This document shows, one piece after another, positions 3,317 to 42,140 of a stretch of DNA of 64,000 bases. Position numbers and translations under genes: made by a program. How positions within the stretch are numbered: the first letter of the stretch is position 1; the number at the start of each line of letters is the position of its first letter. Below the pieces are notes generated by a model. That model worked only from the letters and a program-made list of their open reading frames with translations. It made no database searches and was not told where the DNA came from. This DNA comes from Candidatus Manganitrophus morganii (GTDB lineage: Bacteria; Nitrospirota; Nitrospiria; SBBL01; Manganitrophaceae). The stretch covers positions 62,001 to 126,000 of the forward strand of contig JAJHOH010000001.1 in NCBI GenBank assembly GCA_021651055.1, written 5' to 3'.

Positions 3317-5707
3317 CTACCCCTTCGTTTCTGCCAAGATCGACTTGGCCTCTTCTAAACCGGGAAACGGCTTTCCAGATTGAATCGCTCTGGTCAATGC
3401 CTCTTTCGCCTTCATCGACTCTCCCACCTTATAATAAGCGACCCCGAGATGGTACTGAAAGAGCGGATGATTCGGAGCCCTGTCGACCACTTGCCGCAGC
3501 AAGCGAACCGCTTCTTTCGACTGTCCCGTCTTGGTGTAGACCCATCCGAGGGTATCGAGCAGTTCATTGCTCGAGGCATACTTTTCAAAATCCCGGCTCA
3601 ACGCCAGGGCGCGTTCGAGACTCTTCGGATCCCCTTTGTGATCGGCCAAGAGGATCGCCAGGTTATTGGCCGCCACGACCGATTTCGGTTGATCCTTCAA
3701 AACCGATTCATAAAGTTGAATCGCCCGATCGACTTCTCCGGTCTCATTCAAAATAGAAGCAAGAAGAAGCCGCAGCTCCGTCGATTTCGGATTTGCCTTC
3801 TGTCCGGTCTCTAGAAGTGATATCGCTCCGGGAAGATCCTTCTGAGCGCGCTGAAGACTCGCCCGGTTTAGCCAGGGGGCGACCCAATCGGGCTTGATTC
3901 GGTTGGCGGTCTCGAAAGCCGCTTCCGCTTCTTCGAACCGGCCTTTCGTTAAAAGGACCTCTCCCAGCATTCCATGAGCAAAAGGATGATCCGGTTGCGC
4001 CGCGATCACTTTTTGAAGACGCCGTAACGCCGGATCCCCATTTCCCCGGCTCAATTCGATCCGAACCAAAGCTAAGAGGGGATCGAGTGAATCGGGCCGG
4101 GATGCTGCAGCGCGTTCAAATGCAGCGGTCGCCGGTTCCCAATTCTTCTTCGCCTGGTGAAAATCCCCCTCCGCCATTCCAATGATGAATGAATGGTCCG
4201 TTGCCGCCCGGAGCTTCGTCAAGGTTGATTCGGCCGCACGAAAATCGTGATCGGCCAGCTGAGCGTGCATTAACAGCTGGAGCGACTCCAGATCGTCAGG
4301 CGTTTTCGCGACGATCGATTCCAGCCGTCGGCGTCCCTCCTTACGGCGACCTTCGACCCCATCCAGTTGGGCCAATCTCCGGACAGCGCTGATTTCTTGT
4401 GGATTCAGCAGAACCGCCTTCTCCAAACTCTCGCGCGCCAGTGTCGACTCGCCCTCAAGATAATAAGCCTCCCCCAACAGGGCTTGGATATCCGAGCGCT
4501 GCGGTTGATCCTTGAGAACACTGCGGAATGCCTGCACCGCCTCTTTTTCCTCTTCCTTCGCCAGCGCCATCTTCCCCCGAAGAAGCAGCGCTTCCGAAGA
4601 CCGAGGGTTCTCTTTAAGAACCTCGTTCAGGCGTTTTTCGGCCGCGTCTTTCTTGCCTTCGGCCAAGTCGAGCGTCGCCAACTTTACCTTTGCGTCCAAC
4701 GCCGCGGGGCGGTTTCCCTCTTCATCGACCACCTCCTGATAAATCGTCCGGGCTTTAGACGGCTGTTCCGTTTCTTCGTAAAACCGACCCAGGGCAAAGC
4801 GGATCTTCATCGATCGCGATAAGGCTTTCCTCGCTTCCAGAAACACCTTCTCCCCTTCTTGAAGATTTCGACTGGTCGTGATGAACTCCGCCAAAACCAA
4901 CCGCCGCTCTTCACTCTCCGGGTCGAGTTGAACCGCTTCCCTTAAGTTGGACTCCGCTTTATCCAGATCATTCCGGGAGCGGTAGAACGCCGCCAATCTC
5001 AGCCGATGTTGGAAGACTTTCGGCTCCATCTCGATAATTCGGTGAAGGATCTCCTCCGTCTCTTCCGAACGTCCCAAGCGGACCAGCGTATTTCCAAGAT
5101 TATTCAACAGGACAACGCTTTTCGGATTTTTTTCCACCGCCTGCCGGAAAAGTTTCTCCGCTTCCGCTAAACGATTTCCATCAATATAGAGGGCGGCCAA
5201 AAAGCTGACCGGGTCGGGCTCCCCCGGATATTTACGAACCAACTGTTCCAGCTGCGCCAGCGCCTCGGCTTTTTCTCCTTTTTTGATGCGTACACCGGCC
5301 TGAAGAACCTCCGCCGCAGGGTCTCCGGGATGTTTTGCCAAAATTCTCTCCGCGATCTCCACCACCCGATCGGTCGCTCCCCCTTCCATGTAAAACCGTC
5401 CAAGCTTAACGAGCGCCGCCCGGTGGTCCGGATTCAAATCGACGACCTTCAGGTAATATCGAAACGCATTGAGCCAATTCTTCTCCTTTTCCTCCACCAG
5501 GGCGACCAAATAAGTCGCCTCGGAGTCGTTCGGATCGATCTTCAGGACATTGCGTAAGGCCACCCGCGCCTTCGGCCAATTTTCCTCCTGAATATACTGC
5601 TGCGCCCGCGCTGTATACTTGGCTTTTCTCACCTCGGGTCCGCCGCAGCCGACCAGGACAATCAACAAGGAGAATACCCAAATCCATCTTATTTTATTGC
5701 CCTTCAT
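3317..5707 (-). CDS. prsT: TPR-repeat lipoprotein of the exosortase/EPS system (PrsT-like)
   Basis: Large periplasmic TPR scaffold, 796 residues from the ATG at 5707, which has AGGAGG six bases upstream; an upstream in-frame TTG (5752) is weaker. The signal peptide ends in a lipobox LVGC with C21 as the lipidation site. About twenty tandem 34-residue TPR units follow, with repeated motifs such as A..LLAEAY, NNLAILLA and LDTLGWVYTKTGQ. Length and order match the PEP-CTERM system TPR lipoprotein (TIGR02917, PrsT), thought to aid assembly of the exopolysaccharide export machinery. It sits between the WecA-like gene and the export gene, as in other exosortase loci. Confidence 0.85.
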   Translation of the reverse strand: MKGNKIRWIWVFSLLIVLVGCGGPEVRKAKYTARAQQYIQEENWPKARVALRNVLKIDPNDSEATYLVALVEEKEKNWLNAFRYYLKVVDLNPDHRAALVKLGRFYMEGGATDRVVEIAERILAKHPGDPAAEVLQAGVRIKKGEKAEALAQLEQLVRKYPGEPDPVSFLAALYIDGNRLAEAEKLFRQAVEKNPKSVVLLNNLGNTLVRLGRSEETEEILHRIIEMEPKVFQHRLRLAAFYRSRNDLDKAESNLREAVQLDPESEERRLVLAEFITTSRNLQEGEKVFLEARKALSRSMKIRFALGRFYEETEQPSKARTIYQEVVDEEGNRPAALDAKVKLATLDLAEGKKDAAEKRLNEVLKENPRSSEALLLRGKMALAKEEEKEAVQAFRSVLKDQPQRSDIQALLGEAYYLEGESTLARESLEKAVLLNPQEISAVRRLAQLDGVEGRRKEGRRRLESIVAKTPDDLESLQLLMHAQLADHDFRAAESTLTKLRAATDHSFIIGMAEGDFHQAKKNWEPATAAFERAAASRPDSLDPLLALVRIELSRGNGDPALRRLQKVIAAQPDHPFAHGMLGEVLLTKGRFEEAEAAFETANRIKPDWVAPWLNRASLQRAQKDLPGAISLLETGQKANPKSTELRLLLASILNETGEVDRAIQLYESVLKDQPKSVVAANNLAILLADHKGDPKSLERALALSRDFEKYASSNELLDTLGWVYTKTGQSKEAVRLLRQVVDRAPNHPLFQYHLGVAYYKVGESMKAKEALTRAIQSGKPFPGLEEAKSILAETKG

Positions 5708-5767
5708 GAGTCTCCTCCTGAGACGATCGATCAGGCGCTTTTTTATTTTCAATCTTCAATGGCACGT

Positions 5768-7405
5768 TCAGACCATCCAGGCCCGAACCCCCAGCACCAG
5801 AAGCGCCCAAAGGGCCACCAGACCCCATTGGGTCAGCCGCGCCGAGAGACGGCTTAACAACAGCTCGTAAGCAAAAAATAAAACGATCAATTTCCCCCCC
5901 ATCAAGCCGATCGGAACCTCGCCGATTCGCATTCCGGGAAGCGCCGGCGCCACCAGCGACACAAAAAGAACCAGATAGTCGAGCGGGGTCGTTTGAAACG
6001 GTTTCTCCCGGTTCAGCTGAATACTGACGAAGACCAGCACCGCCGCAAAAACAAAGAAGAGATTTAAAATCGTATGGATCGGCCAATTGCCCGACGGGGG
6101 GGCGCCTTCGCTTAAATAAACGACGAAGGTTCCCCCGACATAAAGCCCCAGCCGAACCAAAAGCGGCGCCGATCGCTGAAAAAACCAAAGTCCCACCAGC
6201 AACAATCCAAAAAGGGCGATCGCCATCAGGCCGAAATCGATCGGCACTTGCCTTGGAATAAAAACGCTGACGATCAAAAAGAGGGAAATACCGATCCCCA
6301 AAAGGTGGGTCGGAAGGTCGTTCAAGGGGCGGCTCTCTTGTTCTTTCAAAATCGGAGCGTCCGCGAACGGCTCCTCCCGATCGATTCGACGAAATTTCAG
6401 CCGACCCCGTCCGGCCAGAACGATCAGGGAGAAAAAAAGGAGGGTCAAAAGGGTCAATGCAATCGCAATCTCCGCCTCCCCGCGCCAGTAGAAAAGAACG
6501 GCCAAGCTGACCATCACCGCCTGAAACCCATAGATTAACGTGACCGCTTCATGGTGAAAAAAACCGATCGTCAATAACTTGTGATGGAGGTGGTTTCGGT
6601 CGGCCGAGAAAAGGGAGCGGCCCTCTACCCGCCGCTGCCCCATCACGCTGATCGTATCGAGAATCGGCAATCCGATAATCATCAGCACCACCAGCGGGCT
6701 ATACCCCCCCCGTCCCGGATCGGTCAGCAGAATCGCCGCCACCCCGACTGAATAACCAAGAAATTGACTCCCTCCGTCCCCCATGAAAATCCGTGCCGGA
6801 TAGGTATTGAACCGCAAAAATCCCAAAATTCCTCCCATCACCGACAAAGAGATCGAAAGGACAAGGGCATCGTCCGACAGAAAGGCGAGATAGGCCATCC
6901 CGCCGAGGCTTAACAGAGAGAGCCCTCCCGCAAGGCCGTCCAATCCATCCGAGAGGTTGATTGCATTTGTAACCCCCACCAAGAGGAGGATCGTCAGCGG
7001 TAAACCGAGCCAAATCGGCAGGATGATCTCTTCTAAAAAGGGGAGGGTGCTCAGACGGATCTCCCCGACCCCAATCACGAATGCCGCCGCGATCAGTTGG
7101 GCCAAAAGCTTGAGCTTAAAATCAAGATTGATCCGGTCATCCATCACACCGAAGAAAATAATGATCGCGGCACCGCCTAAATAAGCAAAGATGATCCGAT
7201 CGACCGGCACCCAAATGAGAATCGACGCCAGGGCGCCTGCTGCAAACGCGATTCCTCCGACTCGGGCGATCGGAGCCGAATGCATCTTCCTTCCTCCCGG
7301 CAGGTCGAGGACATTGAAATAGGCCGCTCCTTTAATTAAAAAAGGGATCAGCCCCATACAAATGACCAACGAGGAAACAAAGACAAAAAAGAGATTAATC
7401 ACCAT
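5768..7405 (-). CDS. WecA/TagO-type undecaprenyl-phosphate sugar-1-phosphate transferase, C-terminally extended
   Basis: Initiates exopolysaccharide synthesis by moving a HexNAc-1-phosphate from UDP-sugar to undecaprenyl phosphate at the inner membrane. Polytopic, 545 residues. MraY/WecA signatures are visible: GGRKMHSAPIARVGG (37-51), the Mg-binding DD at 89-90, NAINLSDGLDGLAGG (147-161), FMGDGGSQFLG (207-217) and the HLHH loop at 272-275. Typical WecA proteins have about 350 residues; here about 190 further residues follow (roughly 355-545) with several extra hydrophobic helices. The extended form may be usual in exosortase loci. Its start overlaps the end of the exosortase gene by 11 bp. 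The sugar cannot be read from sequence, though the UDP-GlcNAc 2-epimerase at 23845 suggests GlcNAc/ManNAc. Confidence 0.9.
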   Translation of the reverse strand: MVINLFFVFVSSLVICMGLIPFLIKGAAYFNVLDLPGGRKMHSAPIARVGGIAFAAGALASILIWVPVDRIIFAYLGGAAIIIFFGVMDDRINLDFKLKLLAQLIAAAFVIGVGEIRLSTLPFLEEIILPIWLGLPLTILLLVGVTNAINLSDGLDGLAGGLSLLSLGGMAYLAFLSDDALVLSISLSVMGGILGFLRFNTYPARIFMGDGGSQFLGYSVGVAAILLTDPGRGGYSPLVVLMIIGLPILDTISVMGQRRVEGRSLFSADRNHLHHKLLTIGFFHHEAVTLIYGFQAVMVSLAVLFYWRGEAEIAIALTLLTLLFFSLIVLAGRGRLKFRRIDREEPFADAPILKEQESRPLNDLPTHLLGIGISLFLIVSVFIPRQVPIDFGLMAIALFGLLLVGLWFFQRSAPLLVRLGLYVGGTFVVYLSEGAPPSGNWPIHTILNLFFVFAAVLVFVSIQLNREKPFQTTPLDYLVLFVSLVAPALPGMRIGEVPIGLMGGKLIVLFFAYELLLSRLSARLTQWGLVALWALLVLGVRAWMV

Positions 7406-25140: not shown

Positions 25141-25818
25141 TTATGTGAACAAATTCATTCGGGAAATTGCGATCAACCCAATCAAGCTCGAACCAAAGAG
25201 GAGAAAAGAGGCGGGAATTGGAGCCGGGGTCATTCCGCCTGCCCAAACAGACCCGCCCTCCTGCCCAAAGATCCGTGAGGCGAAGACAAAGGTAGGACCT
25301 GTCCCGTCCGACAGAGATGTACCCACAAAGTCAGAGATGGAAAGATCCACTCCGTTGATGGCCAGATCAAAAGACAACGTCTCCCCGCTATCGAGCGAAG
25401 ATCCTCGTCTAAAGTCGAACACGCCATCATAGAACCCTCCTCCGGAAGCCAGAAGGTTCCCTCTTCTTTGATTCTCGTTTCGAGCAAGCCTTGTCCTAAA
25501 TTCGCTTACATTTAAGTCAGCGCCATCTAAGGTGACATTGCTGAACCGTAGATCTCTGGGATCACTCCCGTATGGATCTCCGTTAAAGTTGAAATACAGC
25601 GAGTCGAGATTACCCGAAGAGATATTGGTTACATCGACTCGAACCACATCTCCAACATCGGTCAAGGTGACCACTGCCTGGGGGGCGACATCGGGGATAA
25701 GGATGGGGTTGAAGATTTGATCGAGGGCAAACGTCAATTCAGCTGCAGCTGCAGTTGTAACAGCCGGTCCTACTCCTGTTACCAACAACAGTGCGAAAGA
25801 GATAATCAGCTTTCTCAT
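25141..25818 (-). CDS. Secreted protein with VPLPA/PEP-CTERM-like sorting signal
   Basis: Likely substrate of the exosortase at 7395. 225 residues: signal peptide with AAAA near residue 25, a mainly beta-strand, Asn/Asp-rich body with VVTLTDVGDVVRVDVTNIS (about 48-66), then the tripartite tail: motif APIPAS (about 203-208), hydrophobic helix FLLFGSSLIGLIAI, and the final basic residue R followed by MNLFT. This resembles VPLPA-CTERM signals (VPLPAS-F-LFGSGLLGL-R), with API replacing VPL. Start ATG has AGGAGGG upstream. Function beyond being a surface or EPS-associated protein is unknown. The promoter region carries a CRP-type site. Confidence 0.82.
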   Translation of the reverse strand: MRKLIISFALLLVTGVGPAVTTAAAAELTFALDQIFNPILIPDVAPQAVVTLTDVGDVVRVDVTNISSGNLDSLYFNFNGDPYGSDPRDLRFSNVTLDGADLNVSEFRTRLARNENQRRGNLLASGGGFYDGVFDFRRGSSLDSGETLSFDLAINGVDLSISDFVGTSLSDGTGPTFVFASRIFGQEGGSVWAGGMTPAPIPASFLLFGSSLIGLIAISRMNLFT

Positions 25819-25956: not shown

Positions 25957-26624
25957 ACATTGGGAGTATTAGCATTTTCTTAATTACGATAGCAACAAAC
26001 ATTTTTAATTTCTTCAGTACGAAATCCATAATTGAACAAATCAAATGGATTTTTATGAGATCCAAAGGGAATTATCGGGAAAGTGGATTCCAATTTCCCA
26101 TCCCTGTCGCCTCTATATCAAAGAAGATCTCACTCTCATCTCTACGACTCTGTTCAAAAAGGTCTCTTGGAAACGATCATTAAGCTTCGTCGCCGAACGA
26201 AATTATCTTCTCTTTCAATAACAGAATGATCAATGAAAAGTTAAAAGGATGTTAACTTTCAGGAGTGGAATCCCTTCTTGTATTCGAAGAAGTCTTAAGC
26301 GATAAGTCCGGACAGGAAAGAAAAGAAATAGAAAAAATATTAAGAATCAGGCGAGAAAAAGGAATAATTCCTCGAGACAATTTTCAAGAAAGAACTTCGT
26401 TAACCACATGGATCACCCTGGCGCGGCATCACCCTCCTGAAAGGGGCCGAAGGAAACATCGACAAAGACGGGCGCCTCGATATCGATGATGAGACCCTCG
26501 CCCGGCTCGATGTTGTCGCCGTTCACTCTCACTTCGCCTGCCGCGGGCGGAGAGGACCCGCCGGGTGATCCGCGCCTCGATCGGAATCGCCTCTCCTCTC
26601 TTGCTGAAGAACTTCACTTGCCGA
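25957..26624. other. AT-richer intergenic region without a clear gene
   Basis: No convincing gene. The part up to about 26260 is AT-rich compared with flanks. GTTAAA (26240-26245) and GTTAAC (26251-26256) form a direct repeat with 11-bp period like the boxes at 36572 and 36989, but no gene follows it. The right part (26413-26613) holds a possible protein remnant described separately. Confidence 0.5.
26413..26550 (-). pseudogene. Possible remnant of a protein-coding gene (unrecognised)
   Basis: A start-less open frame of 66 codons (26416-26613) ends with a protein-like segment, GEVRVNGDNIEPGEGLIIDI followed by EAPVFVDVSFGPFQEG, then a stop. An overlapping frame reads MKFFSKRGEAIPIEARITRR just upstream, so a frameshifted or truncated gene is possible. 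The segment resembles cupin-like beta-strands only loosely. I do not assign a family. Confidence 0.3.
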
Positions 26625-35926: not shown

Positions 35927-36012
35927 TATTTTAAAAGCGGGTTTTTCGAAGGTCGGAGGAATTTTTCAATAAAGCTGCAAGGAACACCGGTGGTACGATA
36001 AATGGAATGCCG

Positions 36013-36396
36013 TCACGGATAGATCGACTCCATGAAGCTGCGGGCGGAAACGATGCCGCAGGGCGCTCCCCCCCGCGTGACCACAAGGTGGCGGATCTGA
36101 TTCTCCCCCATCAATTTGTACGCCTGCTCCAGCATCTCCTTTTCGTCGATCGTGATCGGGGGATAGCTCATGATCGTTTCGAGTTTGACCCCTTTCGGAT
36201 CGATCCCTTGCCCGAGGACCTTTCGTACCAGATCGCTTTCCGTGACGATCCCCATGACCTCTCCATCACGAGAGACCAGGACGGAGCCGATCCCGTGCTC
36301 CGTCATCACTTCTGCGGCCCGCAGGGCCGATTCCGTCTGATCGAGGGTGAGGAGCTTCTCGCACATGACCCTTTTGATGGGCACTCTCGGAATCAT
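36013..36396 (-). CDS. Two-CBS-domain protein
   Basis: 127 residues from ATG at 36396 (GGAGAAG upstream; the longer frame is a basic Arg-rich spurious tail). Two CBS motifs: KRVMCEKLLTLDQTESALRAA with GIGSVLVSRDGEVMGIVTESDLV, then TIMSYPPITIDEKEMLEQAYKLM with IRHLVVTRGGAPCGIVSARSF. An adenosyl-ligand sensor. It is similar in type to 28358 but on the opposite strand. The 250-bp region upstream carries the box at 36572. Confidence 0.88.
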   Translation of the reverse strand: MIPRVPIKRVMCEKLLTLDQTESALRAAEVMTEHGIGSVLVSRDGEVMGIVTESDLVRKVLGQGIDPKGVKLETIMSYPPITIDEKEMLEQAYKLMGENQIRHLVVTRGGAPCGIVSARSFMESIYP

Positions 36397-36571
36397 TTTT
36401 CTTCTCCGTTTTAAGTTGCGGCGCTTCCGCCTAAGCTCCAACCATTCCGATATTTCGATATAGTATACCAGGCCGCCGCTTTTTCAGGCCGAGGGGATTC
36501 GGCGGATGAATCCTTCATTAAAGCGCCCGGAACCATTCTTGATCCAGGCCCTGATCTATCCGACGGTGGAA

Positions 36572-36588
36572 TTAACACCCTTTTAACA
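36572..36588 (+). promoter_or_regulatory. Pho-box-like direct repeat TTAACA-N5-TTAACA
   Basis: TTAACACCCTTTTAACA: two exact TTAACA hexamers with 11-bp period, about 107 bp before the Cys-rich gene at 36695. Direct repeats with 11-bp period are how OmpR/PhoB-type winged-helix regulators bind; TTAACA with a five-base spacer equals the Bacillus PhoP box. Two such regulators are encoded at 40287 and 41457. Confidence 0.5.
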
Positions 36589-36694
36589 GAAACATAACTC
36601 ATCATAAACAAGCGGAGGGTAGGATGTGATTCAGCTATACAGCGATGATCGATCCACAAAGCGGAGAGGAAGATCAAAACAAAGGAGAATGACG

Positions 36695-36910
36695 ATGCAT
36701 TGTCCTTATCTCGGAAAAGCTGAAAGCACGGAAGGGGAAGCGGAGTGCCGCGCGCGGGAATGGATCTTCGAGCCGAGCTCTCTCGAACTGGACCAGTATT
36801 GTACGACCCGCTTGCATCGTTGGTGTCCCCTCTATCGCGCGTTGATGTCGACGCCGACCGTTTACCGATCGGGAAAGATGCGCCGCGAGCCGCAAAAAGC
36901 TGTCGGCTAA
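36695..36910 (+). CDS. Small Cys-rich protein (CPYL..YC..WCPLY)
   Basis: 71 residues from the second ATG (AAAGGAG seven bases upstream; the first ATG at 36689 is too close). Cysteines at MHCPYLGKAE, AECRARE, QYCTTRLHR and WCPLYRAL give a C..C..C..C pattern typical of small metal-binding or redox proteins of unknown function. Preceded by the Pho-box-like repeat. No named family recognised. Confidence 0.55.
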   Translation: MHCPYLGKAESTEGEAECRAREWIFEPSSLELDQYCTTRLHRWCPLYRALMSTPTVYRSGKMRREPQKAVG

Positions 36911-36988
36911 AACAAGTAGAGACGAACCCCTCCGCCTTATGGGAGAACGAACCCGTCTTTCTCTCTCGCTCCTCCGGCCCCGTCACAT

Positions 36989-37005
36989 TTAACAACCCGT
37001 TAACA
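36989..37005 (+). promoter_or_regulatory. Pho-box-like direct repeat TTAACA-N5-TTAACA
   Basis: TTAACAACCCGTTAACA: again two exact TTAACA hexamers at 11-bp period, about 96 bp before the zinc-ribbon gene at 37101. Same spacing as the box at 36572. Confidence 0.5.
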
Positions 37006-37100
37006 TCTCTTTGATCGCGAAGAAATATCCTTCCTTTATGATGAAAGAAGATGAAAAAAAACGGCGCTCCGACAAAGAATTAAAAATAAGGATGGGATGA

Positions 37101-37295
37101 ATGCCTTGCAGACGTTGTAGCGGGATGATGATAAAAGATCGAGCCCTGGATGAGATCGGACGCGCGGAACATTTTATCTGGCGCTGTATCCTCTGCGGCG
37201 ACATCATCGATCCGATTATCCTGATCAATCGCGCGAACTTTTCTCCGTCCAAGAAAAAATCGTACGTCCGTCGCACGATTCTCTGGTCTGTATAA
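37101..37295 (+). CDS. Small zinc-ribbon protein
   Basis: 64 residues: MPCRRCSGMMIKDRALDEIG with CRRC and, 24 residues on, WRCILCGDIIDP with CILC, i.e. two C-x2-C knuckles. A single zinc ribbon with a hydrophobic and basic tail. Weak GGATGGG upstream. Function unknown. It is preceded by a Pho-box-like repeat, as is its small Cys neighbour at 36695. Confidence 0.6.
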   Translation: MPCRRCSGMMIKDRALDEIGRAEHFIWRCILCGDIIDPIILINRANFSPSKKKSYVRRTILWSV

Positions 37296-37337
37296 ACACT
37301 CGCCCGATCCGCAGATTTTCGGCGTTCATCCTGATAA

Positions 37338-38597
37338 ATGGGTACGATGACTGTATTAGCGCTCCCCGACTCGCCCCATCAAGAACTTCTTCCCGCGCCG
37401 ACCTCGGCTCCGAGGCGTCGTGTCGATGCAATTGATGTTGCTCGCGGCCTGCTGATGTGTGTGATCACCGTCGGTCACGGTCTCATTCTCTTGAACGACT
37501 CGGAATCGAATAAATGGTTGGGCCTTCTGATCACGAAAGTCACCAACCTCGGAACCCCCGGCTTCACAATGATCAGCGGCATGTTGCTCGGTTATTTCGA
37601 GTCGACTTATTCACACTTTCAACGCATTCGATGGAAATACTTCATCCGGGGCATCCAGCTTCTGACCCTTGCCCATCTGCTCATTTCCTTGGCGACCTAT
37701 CCGCTCCGTCAGGAAACCTCATTGATCGAGGTCTACCTCCGCTACTGGTACATCACCGATGCGCTGGCGGTCCTTTTCATGCTTCTCCCAACCTTGGTTC
37801 CACGGTTGGACCGACCCGCTCGGATTGTCATCGGGATAACCTGTCTCCTTTCATGGAAGCTCTTCTCGTTCTTCCCCTCGATCACTTCGCCGATCTTGCT
37901 CGTTATCAAAGAGTTCACTTTCGGGGTCTCTCTTCGCGACAACCCTCTTCTGGGAGATACCTACCCGATCGTTCCTCTGGCCGGCCTCTTTATGATCGGA
38001 ACGGTCCTCGGAAACAGCTTCGCCCGGTCGATTGTCAGTGAAACACTCGGTCAATTCGTCAGAACACTCCGAAGAAGCATCGTCCCGTTGATTCTTTTAT
38101 CCGGATTCCTGGTTGGACTCTGGGCGGCGGGAAAATTCTTCTCGGAGGGCCTCTTCGGAAACACGCTGAAAACGCTCTTCTACCCTGAAAAACTCTCCTC
38201 TCTGCTTCCGTTTTACATCGGCGTTCTCTTTCTGATTCTGGCTTATTTTGTTCGGAAGATCGAAATGGAAAAGAACTTCGGGCGGTTCGAAAAGGCGCTC
38301 GCCCTCTTCGGTAAAACATCGTTATTCACTTATGTCGTCCAATATTTTCTCGTACAGACCATTCCCGCTCTCATCGGATGGCGCAATCAGTTAAACATCG
38401 CCGAGTGGACCCTCTATTTAGGAGGTACCTTCATGATTCTCTTTTACCTGGCTCGCATCTACAACGATTCCTTTCTAAAAGGATGGAACCGGTCGGGCAA
38501 AGCAAAACGGAGGCCGAGTGAAATGAAAAGAAAGAAAGCGCTCACCTCGCCCGACATCTCCCCGGAGCTCCTTAACCTGAAAAAAGACCTCTGGTGA
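37338..38597 (+). CDS. Acyltransferase-like membrane protein (DUF1624/YeiB/OpgC type)
   Basis: 419 residues, about 9-10 transmembrane helices. N-terminal signature RRRVDAIDVARGLLMCVITVGHGLILL (in parts, about 26-52) with the R-x-D-x-x-R-G and conserved His typical of heparan-alpha-glucosaminide N-acetyltransferase-like (DUF1624) and OpgC acyltransferases. It could acetylate or succinylate a surface sugar. A basic C-terminal tail SGKAKRRPSEMKRKKAL is cytoplasmic. Followed by a flippase gene 57 bp downstream. Start ATG at 37338 lacks a strong ribosome site. Confidence 0.72.
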   Translation: MGTMTVLALPDSPHQELLPAPTSAPRRRVDAIDVARGLLMCVITVGHGLILLNDSESNKWLGLLITKVTNLGTPGFTMISGMLLGYFESTYSHFQRIRWKYFIRGIQLLTLAHLLISLATYPLRQETSLIEVYLRYWYITDALAVLFMLLPTLVPRLDRPARIVIGITCLLSWKLFSFFPSITSPILLVIKEFTFGVSLRDNPLLGDTYPIVPLAGLFMIGTVLGNSFARSIVSETLGQFVRTLRRSIVPLILLSGFLVGLWAAGKFFSEGLFGNTLKTLFYPEKLSSLLPFYIGVLFLILAYFVRKIEMEKNFGRFEKALALFGKTSLFTYVVQYFLVQTIPALIGWRNQLNIAEWTLYLGGTFMILFYLARIYNDSFLKGWNRSGKAKRRPSEMKRKKALTSPDISPELLNLKKDLW

Positions 38598-38654
38598 AGT
38601 GACAATAAAATCGGGTTTCCCTTCACTTTCTGAATTGGCAGGAGAAACGGCTCA

Positions 38655-40193
38655 ATGGAGATCGCATCCGAAGTCAAACCCAAGTCGGTTCACTCGCAGG
38701 CGCTCACTCTGATCATCGGACGGATCGCTTCCTTTACCCTCACCTTTTTTATCCCGATCTTTTTGGCGCGCGGGTTGGACCCGGCCGAATATGGAACTTT
38801 CAAGCAGATCTTTTTAATCTTTACAACCCTCTATCTGATCTTACAGGGAGGGATGATTCAGAGCCTTTATTACTTTATTCCCCACGATCCAAACCGCAGA
38901 ACGTCCTGGATCTTTCAGGCGATTTTTTTTGTGACCGCCGCAGGCGTACTTGCCGGCGTCGGCCTTCTCTTGGGGGGAGAAACGCTCGCCGCCTGGTTTT
39001 CCAACCCCTCCCTTGTTCCCTATCTTCCCAAGTTGGCCTTCTTTCTTGTCTTGATGCTCGCCTCATGCCATCTGGAGACGATGCTGATTGCTCAGGAGCG
39101 GATCGCAGCCGGATCAACGGTCCTTTTTCTATCGGAAATGATCCGCGCCCTCTTTATTATTCTCCCTCTTCTGATCGGCCGCTCCCTCTCAGCTGTCATC
39201 ATCGGATTGCTTTCTTTTGCGGCGTTGCGGCTGGCGATCACGGCGGCCTATACGGTCCGAATCCTCCTTCGTGGTAAAAATCGAATATCGTTGATCCGGA
39301 TGGAGGGTCTTAAAACACAGCTCGCCTATGCCCTCCCGTTCGGCGCCGCCGTGGTAGTCGATGTCCTTCAACAAAATCTTCACCAGTATGCCGTCGCTTC
39401 CCTCTTCGATGTCGCGACCTTTGCCGTCTACTCAGTCGGCATCATGCAGATTCCGATCATCGATTTCATCTACACGCCGACCACCCAGGTTCTGATGGTC
39501 CGGATGTCGTCGCTTCTGAAGAACGGCTCGAATCAAGAACGGCTCGCCCTGTGGCATGATGTCACCGCCCGCCTCGCCCTTTTTTTCTTCCCGGTCGGGA
39601 TTTTCTTCGTCTTGATCGCCCCCGACATGATCGCGTTTCTCTTCACGGACACCTATCGGGAAAGTATCCCTCTTTTTCAGATTTCCGCCCTGGGAATTCT
39701 GCCGGCGGTCTTTCTAACCGACGGGATGCTCCGATGTTACGCCCGAATCCCATTTATTCTTTTAACGACCTCCGCAAAAATCGTTCTGACCCTCCTCCTG
39801 ATCATCCCCCTCATCCACATCGCCGGCCTCACCGGGGCGGTCCTCACCACCGTTTTGGTGATGTATCTCGGAAAAGGGATGATGCTCTGGAAGATACGAA
39901 AAATGATGGAGACCTCCTGGGGAGAATTCCTCCCCTGGGGGAAACTCGCCGGAACGCTTTTCCTGGCCGTTTCCGTTTTCCTCCCCGCCGTATTCCTCCG
40001 TCAAACACTTTCGATCGCCCCCTTCACGGCTTTAATCTTTGACACCCTCTTTTACTGGACCGCCTATGGGGCGCTTCTTCTCTGGACACCGCTGCTTCCC
40101 CTTTCCGTTCGAGAACAGATTTTCGCCGCCGCAGGCCGGCTTCATCAAGTCCTCAGAGGAACGAAAACCGGGGTCAAGAGAGAAGCCTGGTGA
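38655..40193 (+). CDS. Second Wzx-like oligosaccharide flippase
   Basis: 512 residues, polytopic, MOP/Polysacc_synt family: opening LTLIIGRIASFTLTFFIPIFLARGLDPAEYGTFKQIFLI (in parts, about 18-57), 12-14 helices, and a helix-9 region FFPVGIFFVLIAPDMIAFLFTDTYRESIP. Likely exports a lipid-linked glycan different from that of the 1-25 kb locus, perhaps the one modified by the acyltransferase-like protein upstream. AGGAGAAACGGCTCA precedes the ATG. No glycosyltransferases are nearby here. Confidence 0.85.
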   Translation: MEIASEVKPKSVHSQALTLIIGRIASFTLTFFIPIFLARGLDPAEYGTFKQIFLIFTTLYLILQGGMIQSLYYFIPHDPNRRTSWIFQAIFFVTAAGVLAGVGLLLGGETLAAWFSNPSLVPYLPKLAFFLVLMLASCHLETMLIAQERIAAGSTVLFLSEMIRALFIILPLLIGRSLSAVIIGLLSFAALRLAITAAYTVRILLRGKNRISLIRMEGLKTQLAYALPFGAAVVVDVLQQNLHQYAVASLFDVATFAVYSVGIMQIPIIDFIYTPTTQVLMVRMSSLLKNGSNQERLALWHDVTARLALFFFPVGIFFVLIAPDMIAFLFTDTYRESIPLFQISALGILPAVFLTDGMLRCYARIPFILLTTSAKIVLTLLLIIPLIHIAGLTGAVLTTVLVMYLGKGMMLWKIRKMMETSWGEFLPWGKLAGTLFLAVSVFLPAVFLRQTLSIAPFTALIFDTLFYWTAYGALLLWTPLLPLSVREQIFAAAGRLHQVLRGTKTGVKREAW

Positions 40194-40236
40194 TCCCGGA
40201 CCCGATGCTTTCGATGCCCGGTTAAGAAACAGAAAT

Positions 40237-40253
40237 TTAACATCGGCGTAATC
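40237..40253 (+). promoter_or_regulatory. Weak box resembling the TTAACA repeats, upstream of the regulator gene
   Basis: TTAACA (40237-40242), then GTAATC at 40248 with the same 11-bp period but only 3 of 6 matches. Close by, GTAAC-ATCG-GTTAC (40273-40286) is an inverted repeat just before the ATG of the response regulator at 40287. Autoregulation is possible. Confidence 0.25.
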
Positions 40254-40286
40254 TTCATAAAACACCGCTCGGGTAACATCGGTTAC

Positions 40287-41033
40287 ATGGTGCAAAGTCA
40301 TCTTCGCGTCACTTCTCCAAAGCCTGAAGAGATCCTCATTATCGAGGATCATCCGGACATGATCGATATCCTCAAAAAAGAGCTGACCCGGCATCATTAC
40401 CACGTCCGGGTCGCCGCCGAAGGCGAAACGGGGCTCTCCGAAGCGCAGCGCCGGCCGCCTGATCTGATTATCCTCGATTTGATGCTCCCCGGCTTAAGCG
40501 GCTGGGAGGTCTGCCGGTTGCTTAGAAAAAACTTAAAAACCCAGGCGATTCCCCTTCTTATTCTTACTGCGCTGGGAGAAGAAGCCAACCGGATTCTGGG
40601 TCTGGAGTCGGGCGCGGACGATTACCTCCCCAAACCGGTGAGTCTTCGGGAGCTGATCGCCCGGATCAAGGCGCTCCTCCGTCGCAAGCGGATGGCCGCC
40701 GAGCAAAAACCGGGCGGCGCGTACCGCGCCGGCGCGCTTGTGATCGACACCGAGCGTCATGAAATTAGGATGGCCGGGCGATTGATTCGGCTGACCCGCA
40801 CCGAATTCGGACTTTTAAAATTCCTGGCGCAGAACCCCGGAAAGGTGTTCAAGCGGGATGAATTGATCACGACCTTGTGGGGAGAAAACCAGTTCGTCGA
40901 AGAGCATAACCTCGACGTTCATATTCACTCCATCCGGCAACATCTGGAGCCCGATCCCTCCCGTCCCCAATTCATTTTGACGGTCCGCGGCGTCGGTTAT
41001 AAATTCCGTCCGCCGGAGGAGACCGGCGGATGA
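40287..41033 (+). CDS. OmpR/PhoB-family response regulator
   Basis: 248 residues. Receiver about 16-130: ILIIEDHPDM, phospho-acceptor Asp in LIILDLMLPGLSGWEV (D near 65), TAL switch and KPVSLREL Lys. Winged-helix DNA-binding about 145-245: RLIRLTRTEFGLLKFLAQNP, GEVFKRDELITTLWG-like, VRGVGYKFRPP. ATGA overlap with the phosphatase gene. The cognate kinase is not adjacent. Possible regulator of the 11-bp repeat boxes. Confidence 0.92.
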   Translation: MVQSHLRVTSPKPEEILIIEDHPDMIDILKKELTRHHYHVRVAAEGETGLSEAQRRPPDLIILDLMLPGLSGWEVCRLLRKNLKTQAIPLLILTALGEEANRILGLESGADDYLPKPVSLRELIARIKALLRRKRMAAEQKPGGAYRAGALVIDTERHEIRMAGRLIRLTRTEFGLLKFLAQNPGKVFKRDELITTLWGENQFVEEHNLDVHIHSIRQHLEPDPSRPQFILTVRGVGYKFRPPEETGG

Positions 41034-41434
41034 TGAAACGGATTCTCTTTGTCTGCATCGAAAACGCATGCCGCAGCCAAATGGCCGAAGCATTCGCGCA
41101 ACGTTATGGAAGAGAAGCGATCGAGGTTTATAGCGCCGGATCGCGCCCGTCGAGAAAGATCGATCCGAAAACGGTTGAAGCGATGTGGGAAGTCGGTTAC
41201 GACCTGACGAAGCATACCTCCAAATCGCTCCGTGAGATCCCGGCTATAGAATACGACGCGGTTGTCACGATGGGCTGCGGAGACGCGTGCCCGATGGTGA
41301 AGGCAAAACACCGCGAGGATTGGGCGATCCCCGATCCGAAATATTGGCCCATCGATCAGTTCCGAGAGGTACGAAACAGGATCGAACAGAAAGTTCAAGG
41401 CTTACTTGAAAGTTTAAAAATCATTTCACCGTAA
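41030..41434 (+). CDS. ArsC-type low-molecular-weight phosphatase / arsenate reductase
   Basis: 134 residues of the LMW-PTP fold. P-loop near the N-terminus: FVCIENACRSQMAEAF, with C-(IENAC)-R (C10, R16). The second motif VTMGCGDACPM supplies Cys for the thioredoxin-type relay of ArsC (pI258 type), and DWAIPDPKYWP holds the catalytic Asp. These features favour arsenate reductase over protein tyrosine phosphatase. It is embedded between two OmpR-type regulator genes, overlapping the first by ATGA. No arsenic efflux gene is close, so a signalling role is possible. Confidence 0.87.
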   Translation: MMKRILFVCIENACRSQMAEAFAQRYGREAIEVYSAGSRPSRKIDPKTVEAMWEVGYDLTKHTSKSLREIPAIEYDAVVTMGCGDACPMVKAKHREDWAIPDPKYWPIDQFREVRNRIEQKVQGLLESLKIISP

Positions 41435-41456
41435 TGGCCGTAATGAAGGAGAACCG

Positions 41457-42140
41457 ATGTCGCAGAAAATATTGATGGTGGATGATGAGGCCGATTTAAG
41501 CAAGCTGGTCGCGCATCATTTGCGGAAAGAAGGGTTCGAGCCGCTTTGTGTCTCCAACGGCTCGGACGCGCTTAAGGCACTGGCCAAACAGCCTTTCTCC
41601 TTGGTGATCCTGGATATCATGATGCCGGGGGAAGACGGCCTGCAAGTCTGCAGAAAGCTGCGGGCCCAGGAGGAGACCGCCGCCCTTCCGATTCTCTTTC
41701 TCACCGCCAAGGATGAGGAGAGTGATAAGGTGGTCGGGCTGGAGCTCGGGGCCGACGATTATGTCACCAAGCCCTTCTCCCCCAAAGAGCTCATGGCGCG
41801 GGTCAAAGCGCTGCTCCGGCGATCGGATCGAAAAGAGAGTGCGGCCGGTTATGCCTATCGCGATCTGGTGATGGATGTCCCCCGCCATGAGGTGAGAGCC
41901 TCGGAGAAGCGGGTAACCCTCACGGCCAAGGAATTTGCCCTGCTTGAACATCTGCTGAAAAATAAGGGGAAGGTCCTGACGCGTGACCATCTGTTGAACA
42001 CCGTCTGGGGGTACGACTACTTCGGGACGACCCGCACGGTCGATGTGCATATCCGAAGGCTGCGAGAGAAGATCCCGATGCTGACGGATGCCATCGAGAC
42101 GGTTCCGTCTTTAGGGTATAAGCTCGTGGATGAAGAATGA
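41457..42140 (+). CDS. OmpR/PhoB-family response regulator
   Basis: 227 residues. Receiver 1-120: ILMVDDEADLSKLV (D9/D10), LVILDIMMPGEDGL (Asp near 53), LTAKDEESDKVVGLELGADDYVTKPF. Winged helix 130-225: RVTLTAKEFALLEHLLKNKGKVLTRDHLLNTVWGYDYFGTTRTVDVHIRRLREK in parts, with the RTVDVHI recognition helix, closely like PhoB/WalR. AAGGAGAACCG precedes ATG. It may be a Pho-type regulator; no histidine kinase in the immediate neighbourhood. Confidence 0.93.
   Translation: MSQKILMVDDEADLSKLVAHHLRKEGFEPLCVSNGSDALKALAKQPFSLVILDIMMPGEDGLQVCRKLRAQEETAALPILFLTAKDEESDKVVGLELGADDYVTKPFSPKELMARVKALLRRSDRKESAAGYAYRDLVMDVPRHEVRASEKRVTLTAKEFALLEHLLKNKGKVLTRDHLLNTVWGYDYFGTTRTVDVHIRRLREKIPMLTDAIETVPSLGYKLVDEE

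Follow-up and report, generated by a model that had tools for sequence, protein, structure and literature searches.

Putative PhoB-type operator boxes upstream of two small cysteine protein genes in Candidatus Manganitrophus morganii

Introduction

The Pho box of the Bacillus subtilis regulator PhoP consists of direct repeats of TT(A/T/C)ACA with a spacer of 5±2 bp (PMC3036859). The cyanobacterial SphR Pho box is composed of CTTAACCT repeats, with at least three 8-bp repeats (PMC1906773). A further box of similar appearance is that of WalR/YycF (PMC5405149).

Here, we analysed a 64-kb stretch of DNA (the window; genome positions 62001–126000) of Candidatus Manganitrophus morganii. The genome consists of one contig of 4.287 Mb, to which pattern searches and region-wise searches were applied.

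The boxes found in this genome have the same hexamer, the same spacer and the same 11-bp period as the B. subtilis PhoP box, and they too lie before pst and phosphatase genes. Unlike in B. subtilis, the host is a member of the Nitrospirota and the regulator is PhoB-like. Moreover, the boxes also precede the genes of two small cysteine proteins (P0001 and P0002), which are not named as Pho genes in PMC3036859, PMC1906773 or PMC5405149. The TTAAC core and the tandem direct repeats are shared with the SphR box, but TTAA is followed by CC in the SphR box and by CA in the boxes described here. The reverse complement of the boxes fits the WalR/YycF box, whereas the orientation towards the gene, the targets and the type of kinase favour PhoB.

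The operator type is of an already known kind, and the P0001 family is the new part. Targeted literature searches found no Nitrospirota Pho regulon and no description of the P0001 family.

Results

Two boxes in the window

The sequence-only reading of the window had reported two exact TTAACA-N5-TTAACA boxes with the same 11-bp period, located about 100 bp upstream of two small genes. It had also placed OmpR/PhoB-type regulators nearby, one of them beside an ArsC-like protein. All of these observations were confirmed (Table 1). Both boxes are exact and lie on the + strand, and the distance from the end of the box to the ATG is 106 bp for the gene at 36695 (box 1) and 95 bp for the gene at 37101 (box 2). 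The regulator genes start at 40287 and 41457, and the LMWP/ArsC-like gene starts at 41030. In addition, box 1 continues into a third, degenerate repeat (TTAACA-N5-ATAACT, 36583–36599).

Table 1. Features of the locus (positions in the window)
Feature	Position	Strand	Remark
Putative Pho box 1	36572–36588	+	exact TTAACA-N5-TTAACA, TTAACACCCTTTTAACA
P0001, 71 aa, four cysteines (C3, C18, C36, C44)	36695–36910	+	family without curated model, pst-linked in Nitrospirota
Putative Pho box 2	36989–37005	+	exact TTAACA-N5-TTAACA, TTAACAACCCGTTAACA
P0002, 64 aa, two CxxC motifs, zinc-ribbon-like	37101–37295	+	one of 9 paralogues in the genome
Membrane acyltransferase-like protein (HGSNAT_cat)	37338–38597	+	43-bp gap after P0002; same order in G183
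Polysaccharide flippase-like protein	38655–40193	+	same order in G183
OmpR/PhoB-family response regulator	40287–41033	+	70% identical to the syntenic G183 copy
LMWP/ArsC-like phosphatase	41030–41434	+	57% identity to the neighbour of PhoB in G119
Orphan PhoB paralogue	41457–42140	+	85% identity to the PhoR-associated PhoB, genome position 1678953

The hexamer TTAACA occurred 12 times in the 64-kb window, and box 1 and box 2 were the only same-strand pairs with a distance of ≤60 bp. Both pairs have the 11-bp period (P ~6e-7). With up to one mismatch, three boxes were found in the window versus a mean of 0.04 in dinucleotide shuffles of the window. A simple scan for sigma-70 promoters identified no promoter and no clear −10 element at either box, and an Rfam search of 36000–38000 identified no RNA element.

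Two weaker boxes of the window are listed for completeness. A one-mismatch box on the − strand (26239–26255) lies ~420 bp before a secreted-protein-like gene (25141–25818), which had no Pfam match. A gene resembling it in G183 has an exact box ~300 bp upstream, in the opposite orientation. A box with two mismatches (GAAACAGAAATTTAACA, 40226–40242) was located 44 bp before the regulator gene at 40287.

Boxes in the whole genome

The whole genome contained five exact boxes, while ~0.2 were expected from a reversed control pattern (P ~2e-6). When one mismatch was allowed, the number rose to 18 boxes versus seven for the reversed pattern. Besides P0001 and P0002, the genes behind the exact boxes were a Porin_5 gene followed by the gene of a PstS protein, the pstS-pstC-pstA genes and the gene of a PhoX alkaline phosphatase. 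All five boxes read TTAACA towards the gene. Hence, direct repeats with an 11-bp period that fit the known Pho consensus are found before core phosphate genes of this genome as well as at the two small genes.

At the pstS-pstCA locus, the exact box is lengthened to three repeats by GTAACA, and the pst genes are followed by a phoU-like gene (named by similarity to the PhoU of G119). A further one-mismatch box precedes a nucleotidyltransferase-uppP-like pair. Another triple 11-bp repeat (TTTACA/TTAACA/TTTACA; genome positions 2266433–2266460, L126:8434–8461) lies before the gene of a 134-aa membrane protein without a Pfam match, which is a candidate for a further Pho target.

Regulators

At genome position 1678953, a response regulator gene is followed by a kinase gene, 18 kb before pstS. 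The kinase passed the curated cut-offs of PhoR (339 versus 334 bits) and PnpS (441 versus 400 bits). The regulator remained below the cut-off of the PhoB model TIGR02154 (243.9 versus 296.2 bits), yet PhoB was its best-scoring family, and a PhoR-PhoB pair is present in the genome.

The 41457 protein did not reach the TIGR02154 cut-off either (242.4 versus 296.2 bits), and PhoB was the best of 106 families. As this cut-off was exceeded in only two of 14 control genomes, the protein was filed as PhoB-like. Its identity of 85% to the PhoB paired with PhoR means that the label 'PhoB-type' was right. The C-terminal recognition region (residues 176–207) is identical in the two proteins, and the 41457 regulator is an orphan PhoB duplicate that would presumably recognise the same box. 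Against the PhoB model, the 40287 protein scored lower than the 41457 protein (215.7 versus 242.4 bits).

The 41030 protein has a clear LMWPc domain, and its scores were below the curated cut-offs for arsenate reductases (100.5 versus 157.6 bits; the remaining scores were lower). The sequence-only reading had suggested a phosphate- or oxyanion-linked regulon. The phosphate part, as a PhoB-type regulon, is supported by the genome scan, the presence of PhoB and PhoR and the genus-wide conservation of the boxes. Taken separately, the oxyanion (arsenate) link is unsupported, with the ArsC-like protein under the cut-offs named above.

Conservation within the genus

The genus set comprised six genomes (this genome, G254, G251, G253, G252 and G183), and P0001 was present in all of them. 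The box upstream of P0001 was exact in four genomes (this genome, G254, G251 and G253) and had two mismatches in G252 and G183. Upstream of P0002, the box was exact in three of the six genomes and had one mismatch in G252, G253 and G183. Boxes are kept before both genes in all six genomes, exact or with one to two mismatches. In G183, the box before P0002 stands out against diverged flanks. In G252, the P0001 gene immediately follows pstS, and pstS has a triple box of its own.

Almost every comparison gave a dN/dS ratio far below 1 for P0001 and P0002 (0.20/1.25 and 0.21/1.04 in the comparison with G252); the P0002 pair with G254 had too few changes to be judged. The presence of orthologues throughout the genus and the low dN/dS suggest that the two small ORFs are genuine genes.

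The P0001 family

The members of the P0001 family follow the pattern C-P-x-L ... C ... P-S ... Y-C ... C-P (C..C..PS..C..C). The residues C3, C18, P27, S28, C36 and C44 were invariant in 39 aligned members, an invariance that is somewhat built in because the members were gathered partly by a motif with these residues. A profile-free homologue search and a separate alignment (A1) gave the same six invariant residues. P0001 had no family match in Pfam, NCBIfam, PHROGs or PDB, and none of the libraries searched describes its family. Two structure predictions for P0001 relatives were both of low confidence. Conserved cysteine ligands of the kind found in metal- or Fe-S-binding proteins were present in both P0001 and P0002.

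The search covered 246 Nitrospirota genomes, 43 of which encoded a homologue of P0001. Genes for pst/phoU were located within 1.5 kb at 14 of 29 P0001 loci (counted by eye, using gene assignments) versus none of 29 loci of the P0002 family, which served as a control (P 8e-6). With wider flanks, 22 of 43 P0001 loci were linked to pst, a count that leaves out a weak ABC-permease match in G183 and enters one duplicated locus once. Others were found beside phoA, ppx or a porin, and about half of the loci were not near pst. A search of the genome contigs with a narrow alignment yielded 24 P0001-type loci, all of them in Nitrospirota as far as this narrow peptide pattern reaches.

In G119, a distant relative from another family of the class, the gene order is P0002-like, P0001-like, Porin_5, pstS, pstC, pstA, pstB, phoU. 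About 6 kb beyond phoU, there is a box, and the pair of PhoB and ArsC-like genes recurs.

An upstream box score of ≥10/12 was reached by 12 of 19 pstS genes, eight of 44 members of the P0001 family and one of 121 other genes. The reversed pattern reached this score in two of the 44 upstream regions of the P0001 family. No strong box was found upstream of 36 of the 44 P0001 homologues. Outside Nitrospiria, the box is usually located before pstS and not directly before the P0001 homologue.

Many P0001 members outside pst loci adjoin histidine kinases and response regulators. In one case (L153:6001–6549), a P0001-like four-cysteine domain and a receiver domain (PF00072, E 1e-24) share one 183-aa frame.

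Several other small proteins were seen at these loci. A recurrent small module in L152, L153 and L154 (~5700–6870) follows the genes of a large kinase and of a regulator and comprises a cysteine protein, a P0001-type protein and, last, a small CAEMAGM-motif protein. Apparent P0001 relatives, namely additional small proteins with four cysteines and the ending YxxCxxF/Y, are encoded at pst loci of other Nitrospirota (L142:811–3370, L062:737–1310 and L141:5607–5816). HMA_2 (heavy-metal-associated) proteins were often found beside Pho-linked cysteine genes (L063, L064, L066, L070, L136, L141 and L115:3418–3846). In L136 and L141, HMA_2 is accompanied by a large HMA-like protein, which may be a P-type ATPase.

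P0002 and the genes behind box 2

The CxxC...CxxC arrangement is kept in the relatives of P0002. The two CxxC motifs resemble zinc ribbons and rubredoxin-like knuckles, and weak matches below the threshold were obtained for Zn_ribbon_SprT, desulfoferrodoxin FeS4 and rubredoxin 2. Unlike zinc ribbons and rubredoxins, P0002 does not reach any curated family and forms part of a separate multi-copy family in Nitrospirota. In the control set, P0002 loci had a porin match or a box only where a P0001 homologue adjoins.

From 37101 to 42140, all genes are on the + strand with gaps of ≤94 bp. P0002, the acyltransferase, the flippase, the 40287 regulator, the ArsC-like protein and the orphan PhoB may form one six-gene operon under box 2. 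The number of terminator-like matches was near the shuffled background (11 versus 7.4).

Discussion

The two boxes are very probably operator sites of the PhoB family, with the sequence type of B. subtilis PhoP. This assignment was made by sequence and is based on the identity of the boxes, the genome-wide gene set, the conservation, the presence of PhoB and PhoR and the linkage of P0001 to pst. We favour PhoB because there are five exact boxes in 4.29 Mb, of which three precede pstS-pstCA, porin-pstS and phoX, and because all five are oriented towards the gene.

Other explanations of the boxes were weighed. They could be sites of an envelope regulator of the WalR/YycF type. The other strand reads TGTTAA-N5-TGTTAA and fits the WalR consensus TGT(A/T)A(A/T/C)-N5-TGT(A/T)A(A/T/C), and the pstS and phn promoters are among the predicted YycF sites (PMC5405149). 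The neighbouring acyltransferase and flippase are related to the envelope, and high scores against YycF were obtained for the PhoB copies as well. We nevertheless regard WalR-type sites as highly unlikely, since each of the exact sites reads TTAACA, and not TGTWAH, towards its gene, and three of them precede pst/phoX genes. Moreover, a WalK-type partner was not found: the kinase next to PhoB failed the WalK cut-off (373 versus 725 bits) and passed those of PhoR and PnpS, and the two regulators both scored best against PhoB.

The boxes might also be read by the 40287 regulator as part of a local envelope or oxyanion regulon separate from phosphate. Its gene, which encodes an OmpR-family protein, lies on the same strand at a distance of 3.3 kb, and the orthologue in G183 is syntenic. 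However, identical boxes are present at the pst and phoX loci, where there is no 40287 gene, and the protein is less PhoB-like than its neighbour at 41457, so that we see a very remote chance for this explanation. Chance matches in AT-rich intergenic DNA are hardly credible. Some one-mismatch sites are found inside genes or before dnaA, and these are probably due to chance. The exact boxes, however, exceed the expectation in the window and in the whole genome by the margins given above, and the two boxes of the window are conserved in six genomes and distinct from the diverged flanks in G183. A CtrA-like site (TTAA-N7-TTAA) was also considered and dropped because of the pst/phoX targets.

For a PhoB-type regulon, we infer regulator binding, induction, co-transcription and protein roles as follows. 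Under phosphate scarcity, PhoR would phosphorylate PhoB (the adjacent copy and/or the 41457 orphan), and phosphorylated PhoB would bind the 11-bp repeats head-to-tail. Binding at box 1 would switch on P0001. Binding at box 2 would switch on P0002 and perhaps the downstream acyltransferase, flippase, response regulator, ArsC-like protein and orphan PhoB. The pst-phoU genes, porin-pstS2 and phoX would be induced together with P0001 and P0002. The presence of the orphan PhoB under box 2 would result in a positive feedback loop.

The role of P0001 can only be proposed tentatively. The likeliest possibility is that this small protein binds a metal or an Fe-S cluster and assists phosphate uptake or two-component signalling. 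A more specific and rather doubtful proposal is that P0001 defines a novel family of signalling modules with four cysteines, which would couple the metal or redox state to phosphate starvation and other two-component control in Nitrospirota. It is suggested by the linkage of about half of the loci to pst, the many loci beside kinases and regulators and the single receiver fusion.

The boxes and their genes would provide a Pho regulon, together with its operator motif, in a lineage in which the cultured members probably live as manganese-oxidising chemolithoautotrophs. The P0001 family may serve as an entry point to the role of small cysteine proteins in phosphate starvation.
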